From: a virus
Reading direction: 5' to 3' (one strand)
IMG/VR virus record: IMGVR_UViG_3300050821_001343
Location: 1 to 64,000 of that record
DNA length: 64,000 bases
Under the pieces are notes generated by a model. It saw only the letters and a program-made list of their open reading frames with translations. It ran no database searches and was not told where the DNA came from. The position numbers and the translations under genes are program-made. Shown here in pieces: positions 1 to 47,033 of this stretch (positions are counted from its first letter, which is position 1; each line of letters starts with the position of its first letter).

Positions 1-263
1 AATTCTGGTAAGCAACATGGGTCGGAACAGCCTTGATGTGCAGCCGTCCTACTGGCATTCGATCCTCCAGAAGCATTCTTCTCTGGCTCTGGGGTTCCTG
101 CAAATCCATCAGCTTGTGACAATGGGTGTTGCGCGTTGGCACCGGGCCATTGACTATTAGCTGCTATCACAAAGCAGTCTGGTAGATGCGATTGTCCGAA
201 ACTGACCCCGAAACTGCCCTCACATGCGGGGCAGCGTTTTAGCTCTTTTGCATTGAAACTCAT
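1..263 (-). CDS. Hypothetical zinc-finger-like protein, 3' end outside window
   Basis: At least 87 codons are open from ATG 263 to the left edge with no stop. GGAGA lies 5 bases before the start. Residues C11, C14, H26 and C30 could hold one zinc ion. The remainder is low-complexity and rich in Ala, Ser, Gly and Cys. A promoter just upstream (284-313) serves this gene. No family is recognised, and the C-terminus is not visible. Confidence 0.7.
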   Translation of the reverse strand, partial: MSFNAKELKRCPACEGSFGVSFGQSHLPDCFVIAANSQWPGANAQHPLSQADGFAGTPEPEKNASGGSNASRTAAHQGCSDPCCLPE

Positions 264-4098: not shown

Positions 4099-4308
4099 TT
4101 ATTTTTCCTTGTACTGTTGTGTCTTGGTCGCACAAAAACCCGCCAACTCGGAAAGGCATAGCGAGTCAAACAAAGTTCCATCGTCGGGGAAAAATGCGTA
4201 TTTCCTCCATTGTGCATACCACTTTACCAACCCAAGATATACACCATGAGAATGTACCGACCATGTTTCCGTTTTCTTCTCCGTTTCTACTATAGAAAGT
4301 GTTAACAT
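4099..4308 (-). CDS. Small protein of a common phage WR-Y-FF family
   Basis: 69 residues from ATG 4308 with AAAGGAG 6 bases upstream. The core LGLVKWYAQWRKYAFFPDD (about 27-45) followed by LSELAGFC is a pattern found in many short phage proteins of unknown function. A longer paralogue with the same core is at 7835-8335. The frame is open through the tRNA-Ser upstream, but that part is tRNA, not protein. Confidence 0.75.
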   Translation of the reverse strand: MLTLSIVETEKKTETWSVHSHGVYLGLVKWYAQWRKYAFFPDDGTLFDSLCLSELAGFCATKTQQYKEK

Positions 4309-4321
4309 GCTGCTCCTTTCA

Positions 4322-4416
4322 TGGCGGGTGCGGTAGGATTCGAACCCACGGAACCGGGTTCTAGCCGGTTCTCTGGTTTTCAAGACCAGCGCCTTCAACC
4401 TCTCAGCCACACACCC
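4322..4416 (-). tRNA. tRNA-Ser (anticodon UGA)
   Basis: Complete type II cloverleaf of 95 bases: acceptor GGGTGTG/CGCACCC, discriminator G, encoded CCA, anticodon loop with TGA, long variable arm built on CCGGCTAG-like pairing. First gene after the promoter at 4436-4464. Confidence 0.95.
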
Positions 4417-7267: not shown

Positions 7268-7405
7268 TTAAGCCAGTACAAGGTCATTGCTACGAACCAC
7301 GCCGTCTTTCGACACCGGGATTGCAGCAATCATCTTGTCATAAATGCTTGTGGCATTTACTTATTTGACTCTCGTTACGGTGAGCATCATTTCCGGCATG
7401 TCCAT
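7268..7405 (-). other. Possible tiny gene interrupted by TAA
   Basis: ATGs at 7405 and 7399 lie right after the -10 of the promoter at 7409-7437, as in the leaderless genes here. The frame gives a 12-residue peptide from 7399 (MPEMMLTVTRVK), then TAA at 7361-7363, then stays open in the same frame for 30 more codons (including IYDKMIAAIPVSKDGVVRSN) to a stop at 7268. It may be a dead or read-through gene, or chance. Confidence 0.3.
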
Positions 7406-7408
7406 AAC

Positions 7409-7437
7409 ACTTTACCAATACTGTCGAATCTTGTCAG
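7409..7437 (-). promoter_or_regulatory. Promoter with extended -10
   Basis: CTGACA (7432-7437), 17-base spacer, TGG then TAAAGT (7409-7414). Same architecture as the other early promoters, with one change from TTGACA. It drives the frameshifted gene and the tRNA-containing operon beyond. Confidence 0.65.
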
Positions 7438-7455
7438 GCCCAAATTGATAGCCGG

Positions 7456-7592
7456 TAGGCTTTCTAGGTACAGTCTTACTCGCCTTCTCTCAGATCGGGC
7501 GCAATCACTGTACCGTGAGGCACTCCCGATAATTCCGGCTAACTTCGTACTACAAAACTTGGTGGACCTGCCGGTATATGCTAACCGGGTCC
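7456..7592. ncRNA. Structured non-coding stretch
   Basis: The 200 bases between the promoter and the gene at 7640 lack a credible gene. They hold an exact 8-base inverted repeat (7467-7474 with 7507-7514) enclosing a CGCC/GGCG stem, and a compact hairpin at 7564-7592 (GGACC/GGTCC plus CGGT/ACCG). Read on the minus strand, the latter is followed at once by ACCA, so it looks like a tRNA acceptor minihelix. Strand and function are uncertain. Confidence 0.4.
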
Positions 7593-7639
7593 AATATCAA
7601 TGCGATGTACTTCATACATGCTTAACTTAAACGTATTGT

Positions 7640-11518: not shown

Positions 11519-11547
11519 TTGACAAATCCCCCGAAGTGTGATATACT
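11519..11547 (+). promoter_or_regulatory. Divergent promoter for RNase H and structured RNA
   Basis: TTGACA (11519-11524), 17-base spacer ending TGA, TATACT (11542-11547). Unlike the leaderless promoters, a leader of about 23 bases with GAGGAG follows before ATG 11577. A T-run (11501-11508) lies between it and the divergent promoter. Confidence 0.9.
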
Positions 11548-11576
11548 TGGTTTAATGTCAAAGTGTGAGGAGACAC

Positions 11577-12002
11577 ATGTCTGAGTACGTTCTACATTTC
11601 GATGGAAGCTGTGGTCCGACAAATCCGGGGCCGTTCGCTGGTTACGGGTATGTCATCTCTAAAGATGGCTTCATTAAGGAAAATGAATCAGGTCCATTGG
11701 TCGGGCAGACATTCAGCAACAATTATGCTGAATTCTATGCCCTATTCAAAGGACTCGACTACCTATTGACAATTCTCCAACCCTCTGACAAGTTGTTCAT
11801 TCGCGGCGATTCCGCCTTGGTTATCAACATCATGCGCGGTAAGTGGCGTCCGAAAGACTCCGGTATCTATTTTCCAGCCTATCTACTGGCAAGTAATGCG
11901 CTAACCTGCATTCGGCGGGATCGCGTTCATGTGTCGATAGACTGGGTTCCCCGAGAAATGAATACACAAGCAGATGCATTATCAACATCGTACCGCACGT
12001 AG
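11577..12002 (+). CDS. Ribonuclease H-like protein
   Basis: 141 residues. The RNase HI fold is shown by the four acidic residues in order: FDGSCGPTNPG (D8), NNYAEFYAL, IRGDSALV and NTQADALS. It probably removes RNA primers during phage replication, next to the divergent DNA polymerase. The start is ATG 11577 with GAGGAGACAC before it. The gene is complete, so the following non-coding stretch does not interrupt it. Confidence 0.9.
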   Translation: MSEYVLHFDGSCGPTNPGPFAGYGYVISKDGFIKENESGPLVGQTFSNNYAEFYALFKGLDYLLTILQPSDKLFIRGDSALVINIMRGKWRPKDSGIYFPAYLLASNALTCIRRDRVHVSIDWVPREMNTQADALSTSYRT

Positions 12003-12035
12003 CTTCGTGGCACAGCGAATTAACGGGCCACTTGA

Positions 12036-12524
12036 TATGAAAAACGGAGTGACTATCTCCGGTAAACATGCGTAATCGTGTTTATTTTCATGTACATGGC
12101 ATTACAACTTTCAACTATGAGGACTTGGCGCTCTGAGCAATCAGGCGTTCTCCGAATTGCTTAAAACCAGACAACTATACGGGACTCCCGGCGACGGGTA
12201 AACGGTTGAAAAGACATGCTTTGCAATAAAACCTAACTAAGTAGGTTGGAATTCTGCTATCGGGTAGGGGCCATAAGCACGCCTGAAGGGAAAAGATTAC
12301 AACCCTTCACTATTTTGAATGAAAAGCCAACAGCGATCTTTGGTAACAATGTGAGTTTGATACCTTACATTGATTTAGAGCCAATGTCTTAGCTAAATGT
12401 TCACTTTATCTTTAGCGATGATATGTTCAAAATAAGCAGTATTATCCAAGACTAGTACAATATCCTACCATGACCAATTGGTGAGTTAACTAGTCGTTCT
12501 TAGCGTTAGTCGTTAATTTTCATA
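12036..12524 (+). ncRNA. Candidate large structured RNA, about 490 bases
   Basis: No convincing gene occupies 12003-12564. The ends pair: TATGAAAA (12036-12043) with TTTTCATA (12517-12524); an alternative pairing is 12017-12025 with 12511-12519. Between them lie exact hairpins: 12045-12061 (5 bp), GTAAACA/TGTTTAT, AGCAAT/ATTGCT (12136-12161), CCCG-GCGA-CGGG with a GNRA loop (12187-12198), AACCTA/TAGGTT (12230-12247), GAAGGG/CCCTTC (12285-12308) and CAATGT/ACATTG (12347-12372). A further CCGGG/CCCGG hairpin sits near 12533-12548. Size, phage context and an adjacent HNH gene recall the ornate large RNAs (GOLLD, ROOL); membership is not shown. Transcription would come from the promoter at 11519. 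Confidence 0.55.
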
Positions 12525-12564
12525 ATAACTTGCCGGGATATTACCCGGTAGGAAGGGGAGAATT

Positions 12565-13002
12565 GTGCCTAGAAACTGGAAAAGACGGAATAAAGTATCT
12601 GAAAAAGGTTTTGTAGTAGCTAAAAAGTTCCAAAACGTCCATAAGGAGCATAGATTGACCTTTTTGGTGTCATGTCTTAGACTGGATAGCCCCGATTTGC
12701 AGTTGAAGGGCCACTTGCGGAGGCGAGGGTTCAACGGTAGTAAAGGATGGTCGCTTCCTCTAACTGATAAGAGTGAGTGTTATCTGTGTAAAGGTAAAGC
12801 AACCCTGAGACACCATGTGATTCCGCTCGTTAAGGGAGGTCGAAACAAACTCAATAACATCGTTCCCCTCTGCCAACCATGCCATTGTCGGGTACATCCA
12901 CACATGCAGAAAGGATATAAACGTCCTGAACGATCCGTTCATCGACAGGTCTTAGGTAAACCATTGCAAACAATAGTTGTAATTCCTCCAAAATCGGTTT
13001 AG
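12565..13002 (+). CDS. HNH endonuclease
   Basis: 145 residues from GTG 12565, with GGAAGGGGAG upstream. The basic N-terminal part is DNA-binding-like. The C-terminal HNH fold is CYLCKGKATLRHHVIPL, KGGRNKLNNIVPLC and QPCHCRVH: paired CxxC zinc ligands and the HH-I-P catalytic strand. It is far too short for an IscB/HEARO protein. Its position right after the structured RNA resembles an intron-encoded or associated homing gene, but no split exon is seen. Confidence 0.85.
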   Translation: MPRNWKRRNKVSEKGFVVAKKFQNVHKEHRLTFLVSCLRLDSPDLQLKGHLRRRGFNGSKGWSLPLTDKSECYLCKGKATLRHHVIPLVKGGRNKLNNIVPLCQPCHCRVHPHMQKGYKRPERSVHRQVLGKPLQTIVVIPPKSV

Positions 13003-13137: not shown

Positions 13138-13300
13138 ATCCAGATCACTCTGGATCATGCTCTGGACCCAGAGTAATGGGCACAAGAACAGGGCGGGGGC
13201 CTCCTCCAGCCGCACTTCGGTGCGGTTCCTCCGTCCTCGATTTTAACCTCAATGGAGAGACGGGGCTAGTTTTCCTCTATGGACTAGCCCTTTCGTTTTT
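13138..13300 (+). terminator. Structured leader ending in a terminator-like hairpin
   Basis: The 307 bases from 13003 to 13309 hold no gene. In order come exact hairpins 13138-13155 (7 bp), 13160-13173 (5 bp) and 13210-13225 (6 bp, UUCG loop). Last is GGGCTAG/CTAGCCC at 13263-13290, followed by TTTCGTTTTT. The last has the form of an intrinsic terminator but stands just 10 bases before ATG 13310, with the GGAG site after it. An attenuator controlling entry into the structural genes is plausible. An AT-rich hairpin at about 13003-13019 may end the HNH transcript. Confidence 0.55.
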
Positions 13301-16032: not shown

Positions 16033-16581
16033 ATGTTTAGGAAAGTAAAATTTAATCTAACAGGACAAACATTTGGATGCCTAACTGCCATAGAAAGGGC
16101 AGTAAGTCCGAAATATGATAAAAAACAAGCTTATTGGAGATGTCGTTGCTCTTGTGGTAACTATCTAAATGTAGGCTCTTTTGAGATTAGAAATCGCAGA
16201 AACATCGGATGTGGGGTTTGTCGAAGCGCGGTATCACGGCTCATTGGCAGTGCGGCTTCGGTATTGTTTAAACGATACAAACGTGAAGCAGAAGAAAGAA
16301 ACCTAGAGTTTTGCTTAACTCCAATGCAATTTAAGGAAATAACACAGAAAAATTGCAAATACTGCGGAATAGTTCCGAATCAGATAATAAAACAAAAAAT
16401 TGCTAACAAGAAAACCGAAGAATATACATATAATGGAGTTGATAGAGTGGATAGTGCAGTTGGTTATACATTGACCAATTGCGTTCCATGTTGCAAAATG
16501 TGCAATGGTGCTAAGAGAGACTATTGCGAGGAAGACTTTTTAAGATGGGTTCGGCGTTTATATGAGCACTCACTCACATGA
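16033..16581 (+). CDS. HNH endonuclease with N-terminal DNA-binding domain
   Basis: 182 residues. The N-terminal segment (LTGQTFGCLTAIERA, CRCSCGNYLNV, IGCGVC) is the DNA-binding element seen in many free-standing phage HNH nucleases. The C-terminal HNH fold is CKYCG, YNGVDRVDSAVGYTLTNCV and CKMCNGAK. Likely a mobile homing-type gene inserted after tRNA-Asn. The last 20 bases overlap the phosphatase gene. GGAG precedes ATG 16033. Confidence 0.9.
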   Translation: MFRKVKFNLTGQTFGCLTAIERAVSPKYDKKQAYWRCRCSCGNYLNVGSFEIRNRRNIGCGVCRSAVSRLIGSAASVLFKRYKREAEERNLEFCLTPMQFKEITQKNCKYCGIVPNQIIKQKIANKKTEEYTYNGVDRVDSAVGYTLTNCVPCCKMCNGAKRDYCEEDFLRWVRRLYEHSLT

Positions 16582-30581: not shown

Positions 30582-31508
30582 ATGCCATCAAGTTCTATTC
30601 AACTTTTACAAACCATTGAGTGGGCAAAGAGGTTTATATTTCAACGCCGCACGAACTTTGGCAACTTCAATGAGCCTGCCATTAGCAGCGCCAATACAAT
30701 TCTCCAGACCATACTGGGACCGCCGTTTGCATGGCCGTGGAACAGGGCTGTCACTGGTTTCATTACTACTCCCGGAATACAGGATTACACGATTTTCAAC
30801 TGGCAAGCCACTACGAATGTTTCTCTTGGATATGTACTGGTAGACTCGAATGGGAACAGTCAGTCAGTGACAACAGCCGGTACAACAGGAGCATCCCTTC
30901 CAACGTGGAATGCAACTACAAGCGGGACGACTGCTGATGGATCAGCCGTGTGGACTAACCTTGGTCCTATAGGTCTATCTAATGGCTCTACTACTTACAA
31001 CTTCTCGTGGATTGAAACGGCTTCACTGAATGCACCACAGGTTAACGGTAATGGGACAGTTTGGAAAGAGATTTCAAACAAGAATATGCTTGCTGTAGAA
31101 TCGAATACAGATCGTCCACACAGCATCTCCCCACAATTCACGGATGTGAACGGAAACATTACTTTCCGCTTGATGCCCTGTCCTGATAAAGCATATCCTG
31201 TATCTATCACGATGCAGCAAAAGGCTCCCTTGTTCACAGAAATTAGCCAAGAATGGGCACCAGTTCCAGACTATTTTAGTCATGTATACAACTGGGGATT
31301 CTTGAGTTTGATGTTCATGTTTGCTGATGACCCCGGTAGAGCGCAGTTCGCTAATCAGAAGTTTGTAGCACATCTTCTAAGTTCCGCTCATGGACTAACA
31401 GACACCGAACGCAACATTTGGCTCAACAACTGGCAGGCGGTATCAGGACAACAAGTAATCCTCGCAACGAACATTCAACAAGGATTCCAAGGCAGAACAG
31501 CGTTATAA
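30582..31508 (+). CDS. Second adaptor-like virion protein
   Basis: 308 residues from ATG 30582 (GGAGACAG before it). SSANTILQTILGPPFAWPWNR matches the corresponding part of the preceding protein, as does a module DSNGNSQSVTTAGTTG...PTW and a helical end (YFSHVYNWGFLSLMFMFADD, RAQFANQKFVAHLLS). Adaptor or tail-completion role inferred from order and length. Confidence 0.65.
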   Translation: MPSSSIQLLQTIEWAKRFIFQRRTNFGNFNEPAISSANTILQTILGPPFAWPWNRAVTGFITTPGIQDYTIFNWQATTNVSLGYVLVDSNGNSQSVTTAGTTGASLPTWNATTSGTTADGSAVWTNLGPIGLSNGSTTYNFSWIETASLNAPQVNGNGTVWKEISNKNMLAVESNTDRPHSISPQFTDVNGNITFRLMPCPDKAYPVSITMQQKAPLFTEISQEWAPVPDYFSHVYNWGFLSLMFMFADDPGRAQFANQKFVAHLLSSAHGLTDTERNIWLNNWQAVSGQQVILATNIQQGFQGRTAL

Positions 31509-31520
31509 GCGGAGCAATAA

Positions 31521-32414
31521 ATGGCAATTTCACATGTTAGCACAGCTTCCGCAGGAACCGGCACATCGACGTTTGCCAATAATCAAACGGGAAATGCCTT
31601 GTTTGCTGCGTTCATAGCCTATGGGGGCAGTTCTCCTTATACGTTTCCATCGACTATGACGGACACGGCTGGTAACTTATACAATTTGCTCTACGACGGC
31701 ACTGATGTCACATTTACACAATTCACTACATGGGCTATATATTGCTGCCCCTCTTGTATTGGTACTACAACTTTAGTTCAAACAACGTATGTGAATCCTG
31801 ACGGAAGTCCTGTTGCAAATGGGACTCTTTTGATCCGCTTGAACCGGGACGGAATCACATCAGATAAACAGATTCAATCTAACTTCATCAGAATCCCATT
31901 GGATTCTCAAGGTCGTGTTACGGGAAGTCCTGTTTTGCCTTTGACCTCAGCAATTACTCCTTCGGGAACCTATTACATAGGGAAGGTATACAACTCGACC
32001 GGACAACTTGTAGGTATACCATTTATAGTTCCTGTTCAAAACGCATCTTCTAACTCGTTTACAACTCCTACTTCGGGAAGTGTAGCTACACGTAGCATGG
32101 GAGCAGAATTTTCTGGTTTTAACGGAGTAGTCACGTTGGATCAGGGAGTAGGTCCATCAGAAGATGTGACCCTTGGTTATATACAAGTCCCTCCGGCATC
32201 GGGAGGACCTCTTATAACTATAGGTGATTTTGCATTAGGCATGGCGTTGAACGTTTCTGGGGTGTGTAATGCCGCAGCAGGGGCTAATGCTCTTTATACC
32301 GGAGGAGACACTATTCTTCAATGGGCTATTGCAAACGCCACGACCTATAGGCAGAATTTTTCCTTTACAGGTGGGGTATCACAAAGCGCCTTGGTAGCAG
32401 CATTTTTCGCATAA
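31521..32414 (+). CDS. Tail protein with one domain nested in another
   Basis: 297 residues. Residues about 92-190 (VNPDGSPVANGTLLIRLNRDG, STGQLVGIPF) match the stand-alone protein at 36158-36508. The flanking halves (SASAGTG-type N-terminus with FTQFTTWAIYCCPSC; C-terminal MGAEFSGFNGVVTLDQGVG...) read as two parts of one beta-sandwich. The small domain seems inserted into a loop of the larger one. Probably a fibre or baseplate-like component. Confidence 0.7.
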   Translation: MAISHVSTASAGTGTSTFANNQTGNALFAAFIAYGGSSPYTFPSTMTDTAGNLYNLLYDGTDVTFTQFTTWAIYCCPSCIGTTTLVQTTYVNPDGSPVANGTLLIRLNRDGITSDKQIQSNFIRIPLDSQGRVTGSPVLPLTSAITPSGTYYIGKVYNSTGQLVGIPFIVPVQNASSNSFTTPTSGSVATRSMGAEFSGFNGVVTLDQGVGPSEDVTLGYIQVPPASGGPLITIGDFALGMALNVSGVCNAAAGANALYTGGDTILQWAIANATTYRQNFSFTGGVSQSALVAAFFA

Positions 32415-46625: not shown

Positions 46626-47033
46626 TTGTTAAGACAAGATGATTTTTGCCGGTCGCAATTAGTCCTTGCAGGATGGAGACACGGACATATCTATGGGGGG
46701 CATCTCGGAAGCTGTTTAATCATGAGTTGCCTCGCTAACCGCCAGAAAGCGGGATGGGGACCATGGCTAGAGATTTTAGACACAATACCAAGGTATGCTG
46801 CCACAATTGAACAGCCTGAAGGGATACCCTCGATTTGGGAACCTAACTTCGTGAGACTCTTGCACGAAGTTGAATCCATCTCGGAAGGCTCCAAGGACTA
46901 TGCAAACGGAGCAATGTATTGGTTTGACTCTTCGAAACCTGTCACCAATGAATGGTTCAAAGAGAAGCTTTTAGATAACAAAGAATCACATCCAGTAATA
47001 GGGAACATGAATTCCCTAATGTTGTTAAGATAG
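46626..47033 (+). CDS. Possible cell-wall hydrolase-like protein
   Basis: 135 residues from TTG 46626 with AAGGAGG 5 bases before it. The ANRQKAGWGPWLEILDTIPR segment resembles the NR...GW core of SleB-like wall hydrolases, but the catalytic residues cannot be confirmed. It follows the internal proteins and precedes a membrane protein. Confidence 0.45.
   Translation: MLRQDDFCRSQLVLAGWRHGHIYGGHLGSCLIMSCLANRQKAGWGPWLEILDTIPRYAATIEQPEGIPSIWEPNFVRLLHEVESISEGSKDYANGAMYWFDSSKPVTNEWFKEKLLDNKESHPVIGNMNSLMLLR

Follow-up and report, generated by a model that had tools for sequence, protein, structure and literature searches.

A large structured non-coding RNA, probably of a class absent from Rfam, at a fixed site in podoviruses of Acidobacteriota

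Positions 12003–12558 (+ strand) of the window, i.e. the whole analysed stretch of 64,000 nucleotides, probably encode a structured non-coding RNA that is large (∼555 bases) and has several domains, with its extent taken from homologue boundaries. It would represent a class that is absent from Rfam and, within the part of the literature covered, new; the class is akin to ROOL and GOLLD in kind without being related to them. The RNA has homologues at a conserved genomic position, its helices covary and it occurs independently of the adjoining HNH gene. Judging from the sequences, the class is modular: E1 or an alternative forms the 5′ module, the core is of class A in the window and of class B or C in other members, and a 3′ element completes the RNA.

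The virus record comprises 99,181 bases and probably represents a complete genome, since its first 30 bases recur (at 99085) ∼97 bases before the record end, the ends apparently overlapping by ∼97 bases (window 1–97 and 99085–99181). The structured stretch (12003–12564) is located between an RNase H gene (11565–12002, + strand; Pfam RNase_H/RVT_3), which is the neighbor in most relatives as well, and an HNH endonuclease gene (12565–13002, + strand; 145 aa; Pfam HNH_5/HNH). Here the two arms of the genome diverge: the replication arm, headed by the Pol A gene, runs leftward and the structural arm rightward. The terminase of the window phage gives a full-length match (54%) to that of Tunturiibacter phage Tunturi_3, an Acidobacteriota podovirus isolated on Tunturiibacter psychrotolerans (PMC11924767). 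Acidobacteriota podoviruses of ∼97 kb that resemble Tunturi_3 carry relatives of the RNA at the equivalent site, adjoining RNase H where the rightward arm starts. A sigma70-like promoter (11519–11547, + strand; TTGACA-17-TATACT with TG preceding the second hexamer; 11/12 matches) probably drives RNase H and, in the window genome, rightward transcription of the RNA, as predicted from its sequence. About a dozen members have a sigma70-like promoter of their own just 5′ of the RNA.

Two other hairpins were observed in this part of the genome. The first, which is conserved and encloses CCTCCTCC or CTCCTCC, a sequence resembling the anti-Shine–Dalgarno end of 16S rRNA, is found just 5′ of the rightward structural genes in the window (13191–13239) and L025 (13712–13760), as well as in L001, L007, L010, L012, L018, L019, L034, L045 and L139, and is present also in phages that do not have the large RNA. 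The other (13262–13291) is terminator-like and directly precedes the gene that opens the rightward arm; counterparts were recognised by eye in several relatives, Tunturi_3 not being among them.

The absence of a credible gene from the structured stretch, asserted in the preliminary description, is borne out by a longest stop-free run of 51 codons (+ strand) and by a search across the RNA region for a reading frame common to the homologues, which found none. Compared with dinucleotide shuffles, the fold has a z-score of −2.98 on the + strand (0 of 100 shuffles as low) and −0.73 on the − strand; z-scores are weak in several homologues (L010, −0.36; T3, −0.43; L018, −0.13). As for the series of exact hairpins described initially, the excess is real for those of at least six pairs (six versus 1.93 in shuffles, 0 of 200 as high) and not significant for those of at least five pairs (nine versus 6.4). 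One of them had been described as GNRA-capped, and indeed CCCG-GCGA-CGGG is present at 12187–12198. The boundaries had also been placed well: the 5′ edge falls on the stop codon of RNase H, TAG (12000), with which the conserved 5′ motif of the RNA begins, and the 3′ edge lies at ∼12552–12558, where the ribosome-binding site of the HNH gene starts. By contrast, the proposal that complementary ends close a single domain of ∼490 bases found no confirmation. The only candidate detected, TTAACG (∼12020)/CGTTAA (∼12511), has no counterpart there in homologues, and the comparative data point to local domains rather than to one such closure.

A search with the HNH protein led to L001, whose HNH is 57% identical and whose RNase H–HNH spacer is clearly homologous DNA, and further relatives were reached through DNA polymerase alignments. 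A DNA pattern based on the 5′ motif (TAGCTTC..GGCAC.GCG...AACGGGCC) identified L010, L012, L018, L019, L014 and L021. Overall, homologues of the window RNA occupy the equivalent position in L001, L010, L009, L019, L012 and L018. Pattern matches in L003, L005, L015, L020 and L022 (viral) and in L023 and L024 (bacterial) were read as chance and are mostly inside coding sequence; the scan of bacterial genomes with the pattern gave only two matches, both of them chance and within genes. Searches by blastn with the RNA and its relatives against annotated phages produced no match. Contig G002, belonging to an unrelated phage, carries two E1-bearing RNAs (31369–31659 and 46801–46831, both on the − strand), each located 5′ of a different gene.

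The 5′ module E1 (12000–12035, + strand) has a short stem, GTGGC/GCCAC (12007–12011/12027–12031), and displays the strongly conserved motifs TAGCTTC, GGCAC.GCG and AACGGGCC, with 27 positions invariant across 8 members, two of which come from unrelated phage contigs. A T-box identity of E1 was considered and dropped, as most members have CGG in place of UGG and Rfam is unmatched. E1 is followed by a three-way junction (12037–12091, + strand) formed by a stem (12037–12043/12085–12091) and hairpins 12045–12061 and 12063–12084 (loop CGTAAT); every helix of this junction covaries. The core domain (12109–12211, + strand) is closed by 7 pairs (12109–12115/12205–12211), all 7 of which are altered on both sides, and contains CGAAKTGC, a (GGA)ACCTATACGG motif and the GNRA-capped hairpin. 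The loop of the latter reads GCGA, GUGA, GAGA and GUAA in four members; the stem varies while GNRA stays. Downstream of the core, a hairpin followed by AAnTCTGC (12230–12247, + strand) has 6 of 6 pairs altered on both sides among relatives, with 93% of cells paired. The 3′ half includes hairpins at 12284–12309, 12347–12372 and 12392–12416 (+ strand); compensatory changes between the window and L001 are seen in the second and third, and the first is unsupported by this comparison. The 3′ terminal hairpin CTTGCCGGG/CCCGGTAGG (12529–12552, + strand) likewise shows pair changes relative to L001, and the purine-rich GGTAGGAAGGGGAG directly 3′ of it is the putative ribosome-binding site of the HNH gene. 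The CCGGTAGGG(A) motif near the 3′ end of the RNA is also found in L001 and L009.

Because MAFFT misaligned the window when applied to class A cores, we used two-sequence models, R2 for the core and R3 for the 5′ module with the three-way junction. Only the window and L001 went into either model, and the E-values come from short calibrations. R2, run against 589 kb, detects L019 (E 1.6e-9) and L009 (E 0.0022), both where they were expected, with the next match at E 2.9. R3 finds L012 (8e-7), L010 (1.2e-6), L018 (1e-4), L014 (3e-4), and L021 and L019 (2e-3 each), thereby recovering the junction in L010 and L019. In the class A set of five sequences, the core contains 28 doubly changed cells versus 8.8 in shuffled data (0 of 500 shuffles as high; covariation score 0.677 versus 0.223) and, in the alignment obtained with R3, the 5′ domain contains 38 versus 12.8 (again 0 of 500), with standard pairs in 91.5% and 91.7% of cells, respectively; these pair counts lean towards the proposed structure, because the alignments were fitted to models of that structure. 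Slid controls give far lower covariation than either the class A core or the 5′ domain, and class B, described below, also exceeds its slid controls. One helix of model R2, 15–19/71–75, is poorly supported in the covariation count. A structure-free MAFFT alignment of the window with L001, evaluated for a structure picked by eye from those two sequences, has 18 pairs doubly compensated, 39 unchanged, 4 one-sided and 7 broken.

The same locus is occupied in twelve relatives by a class B RNA, with the core TTCTG..CAG - CCGGG-CAACG - hairpin - ACGTC-CCGG and 44 doubly changed cells versus 13.5 in shuffled data, and Tunturi_3 has an unannotated sister-class RNA at the corresponding place, in the region 93.23–93.61 kb. 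The class B model, R1, recovers class C (L007, 7e-4; L027, 0.04), L021 (0.006) and a further place in contig G002 (6e-6), none of which was in its training set. R1 has no match to the window, and thus classes A and B are tied by position and E1, with no common core model. Class D (L028, L029 and L030) was recognised by eye only, without a model. In L012 and L018, an E1 of the window type is joined to a class B core; this combination and the presence of several core classes at one site suggest that the RNA is modular and fast-changing at a fixed site. Lack of covariation and a conserved reading frame had been named in advance as counter-evidence to a structured RNA. Instead, covariation is seen in the class A core, the 5′ domain and class B, and no frame is conserved across homologues, a combination that characterizes large structured phage RNAs in general.

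With Rfam 15, nothing matches the window RNA at gathering score, and the single match at E ≤ 10 is a meaningless one to a snoRNA (E 9.1; 10.1 bits versus a gathering score of 41). The tested relatives, at gathering and relaxed thresholds, give no credible match except to tRNA, tRNA-Sec-like and tmRNA models. Hence, of the initial suggestions, a large structured RNA of possibly new class is supported by the homologues, the covariation and the absent Rfam match, whereas membership in ROOL or GOLLD is not, their models being unmatched at gathering score or E ≤ 10 in the window RNA and relatives alike. Similarly to ROOL, the RNA is large (about 600 nt), highly structured and phage-carried, and the window phage is also tRNA-rich; however, it has no sequence or model match to ROOL, which assembles into an RNA-only nanocage (PMC12286853), and apparently does not lie in a tRNA island of the kind near which ROOL is encoded. 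The tRNAs of the window are found at 4.3–6.3 kb and 15.8 kb, and none adjoins the RNA. With GOLLD it shares the character of a large phage RNA having a constant and a variable part, but it is shorter, has no model match and carries its most conserved module (E1) at the 5′ end, whereas the conserved part of GOLLD is the 3′ region (PMC12286853).

Other RNAs were seen in these phages during the same searches. Permuted tmRNA (Rfam RF04321) is above gathering score in the window (7321–7621, − strand; 51.8 bits), in L042 (8845–9052; 86.6 bits) and in L045 (6627–6865; 69.7 bits), and such a two-piece tmRNA borne by phages merits separate study. In phage contig L021, positions 4242–4327 score 38.9 bits with the tRNA-Sec model, which is under the gathering score. 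The tRNA-Asn gene of the window adjoins a gene of endonuclease-VII/HNH type (16033–16581), probably another homing endonuclease.

The proximity of a structured RNA to HNH or endonuclease-VII genes is what a group I or II intron, or another ribozyme with a homing endonuclease, would produce. Yet, in agreement with the preliminary description, which considered introns and HEARO a poor fit, no such Rfam model is matched at E ≤ 10. Moreover, RNase H is a complete domain that ends at 12002, where the RNA begins, no split gene or exons are seen, and in many members the RNA is intergenic, with its own promoter and no endonuclease. An intron, or another ribozyme of this kind, is therefore highly improbable. 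The HNH gene itself is a true neighbor in the window, but the association emphasized at the outset turns out to be incidental. HNH lies 3′ of the RNA in the window, L001, L009, L027, L039 and L087; in L019 it is upstream, its frame extending over the initial ∼90 bases of the RNA; endonuclease-VII types take its place in L007, L012 and L084; and L010, L018, L034, L035, L041, L042, L045 and Tunturi_3 carry the RNA without HNH. The HNH gene is thus not an obligatory part of the RNA and is most likely the resident endonuclease of the site, a homing passenger. A short ORF behind the RNA in L090 (after 3018) has a C-terminal motif similar to that of the neighboring HNH family (IVVYVPPKP), without the HNH domain.

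The arrangement, an RNA just 5′ of a gene with an IscB-like HNH domain, also resembles HEARO, the omega RNA of IscB, and the RNA could be a component of an HNH ribonucleoprotein that is related to IscB and its omega RNA but reduced. We kept such a partnership among the readings because the HNH domain is the most IscB-like among NCBIfam families: its best match is guided_IscB (26.9 bits), and it matches IscB chains in PDB. Furthermore, full-length members of this HNH family are located almost only at this junction. Nevertheless, the score is far under the IscB cut-off of 175 and is confined to the HNH domain, the 145 aa include no RuvC parts and the HEARO model is unmatched. In addition, the RNA is commonly found without HNH, the endonuclease-VII types that substitute for it are unrelated, and in one case (G023) a family member resides at the junction without a recognised RNA. 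Accordingly, we regard this partnership as improbable and the homing passenger as the better description of the gene.

Of the functional readings, the most likely appears to be that the RNA acts in trans as a self-folded RNA, in the manner of ROOL, GOLLD and OLE, a plausible role that still falls short of being probable. Three features speak for it: many members form transcription units of their own, the genes that follow them are variable or lacking, and the elaborate structure includes a 5′ loop that is invariant. The E1 loop and the GNRA hairpin might bind the RNA itself or a host factor. Alternatively, the RNA could be a cis-acting leader (an attenuator, a put-like antiterminator or a riboswitch) controlling the genes behind it. 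Its location at the head of the rightward arm, in the order promoter, RNA, gene, fits such control, and shorter relatives (G005; G002 twice) lie directly 5′ of genes whose ribosome-binding site comes just after the 3′ element. Furthermore, no + strand terminator-like site occurs between the RNA and the late genes, the first of which is preceded by the terminator-like hairpin. However, most members have an additional promoter and a further conserved leader between the RNA and the late genes, RNase H comes first in the window, and the genes behind the RNA vary or are missing. Known put-type elements are, moreover, several times shorter than the window RNA. A leader thus seems rather unlikely.

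Proximity to replication genes raises yet another possibility, namely that the RNA is a replication primer or R-loop RNA comparable to ColE1 RNAII, processed by RNase H and extended by the Pol A type polymerase next door. RNAII is close in length to the window RNA and similarly adjoins Pol I-type polymerase and RNase H genes; the likeness comes from length and gene neighborhood, with no known sequence relation. In most members, Pol A and RNase H flank the RNA, and the 3′ end of the RNA is G-rich. Among records longer than 80 kb, 10 have both RNA and RNase H, 1 has the RNA only, 4 have neither and 0 have RNase H only (Fisher p ∼0.004, by hand), although linkage and shared ancestry alone, or joint loss of neighboring genes, could yield the same co-occurrence. 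RNase H was counted by alignment search, since a Pfam RNase_H profile search of whole records missed known members. Against a primer, G027, G002 and G005 carry the RNA without a phage RNase H, and Tunturi_3 annotates its own primase/helicase. The skew minimum near the locus would be expected of an origin, but the RNA-less phages G019 and G023 have minima at this junction as well, indicating that skew tracks divergent transcription; skew was therefore dropped as evidence for an origin. Collectively, these observations make a primer unlikely, and we retain action in trans as the preferred reading.

More broadly, and tentatively, the class may constitute a modular RNA machine that diversifies rapidly in Acidobacteriota phages, its 5′ modules and cores being interchangeable while the site stays fixed. 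Such a machine would operate as an assembly of RNA only or as a switch, likewise of RNA, between the replication arm and the structural arm; it would then be a functional class without a described counterpart. Few classes of very large structured RNAs are known from bacteria and phages, and the functions of ROOL, GOLLD and OLE are poorly understood (PMC12286853). The RNA described here adds a covariation-supported class linked to a single control point in the genome. The presence of a sister-class RNA in an isolated phage, Tunturi_3, makes RNA-seq, probing, deletion and cryo-EM possible, and the swapping of modules at a single site opens the way to studying how large RNAs evolve.
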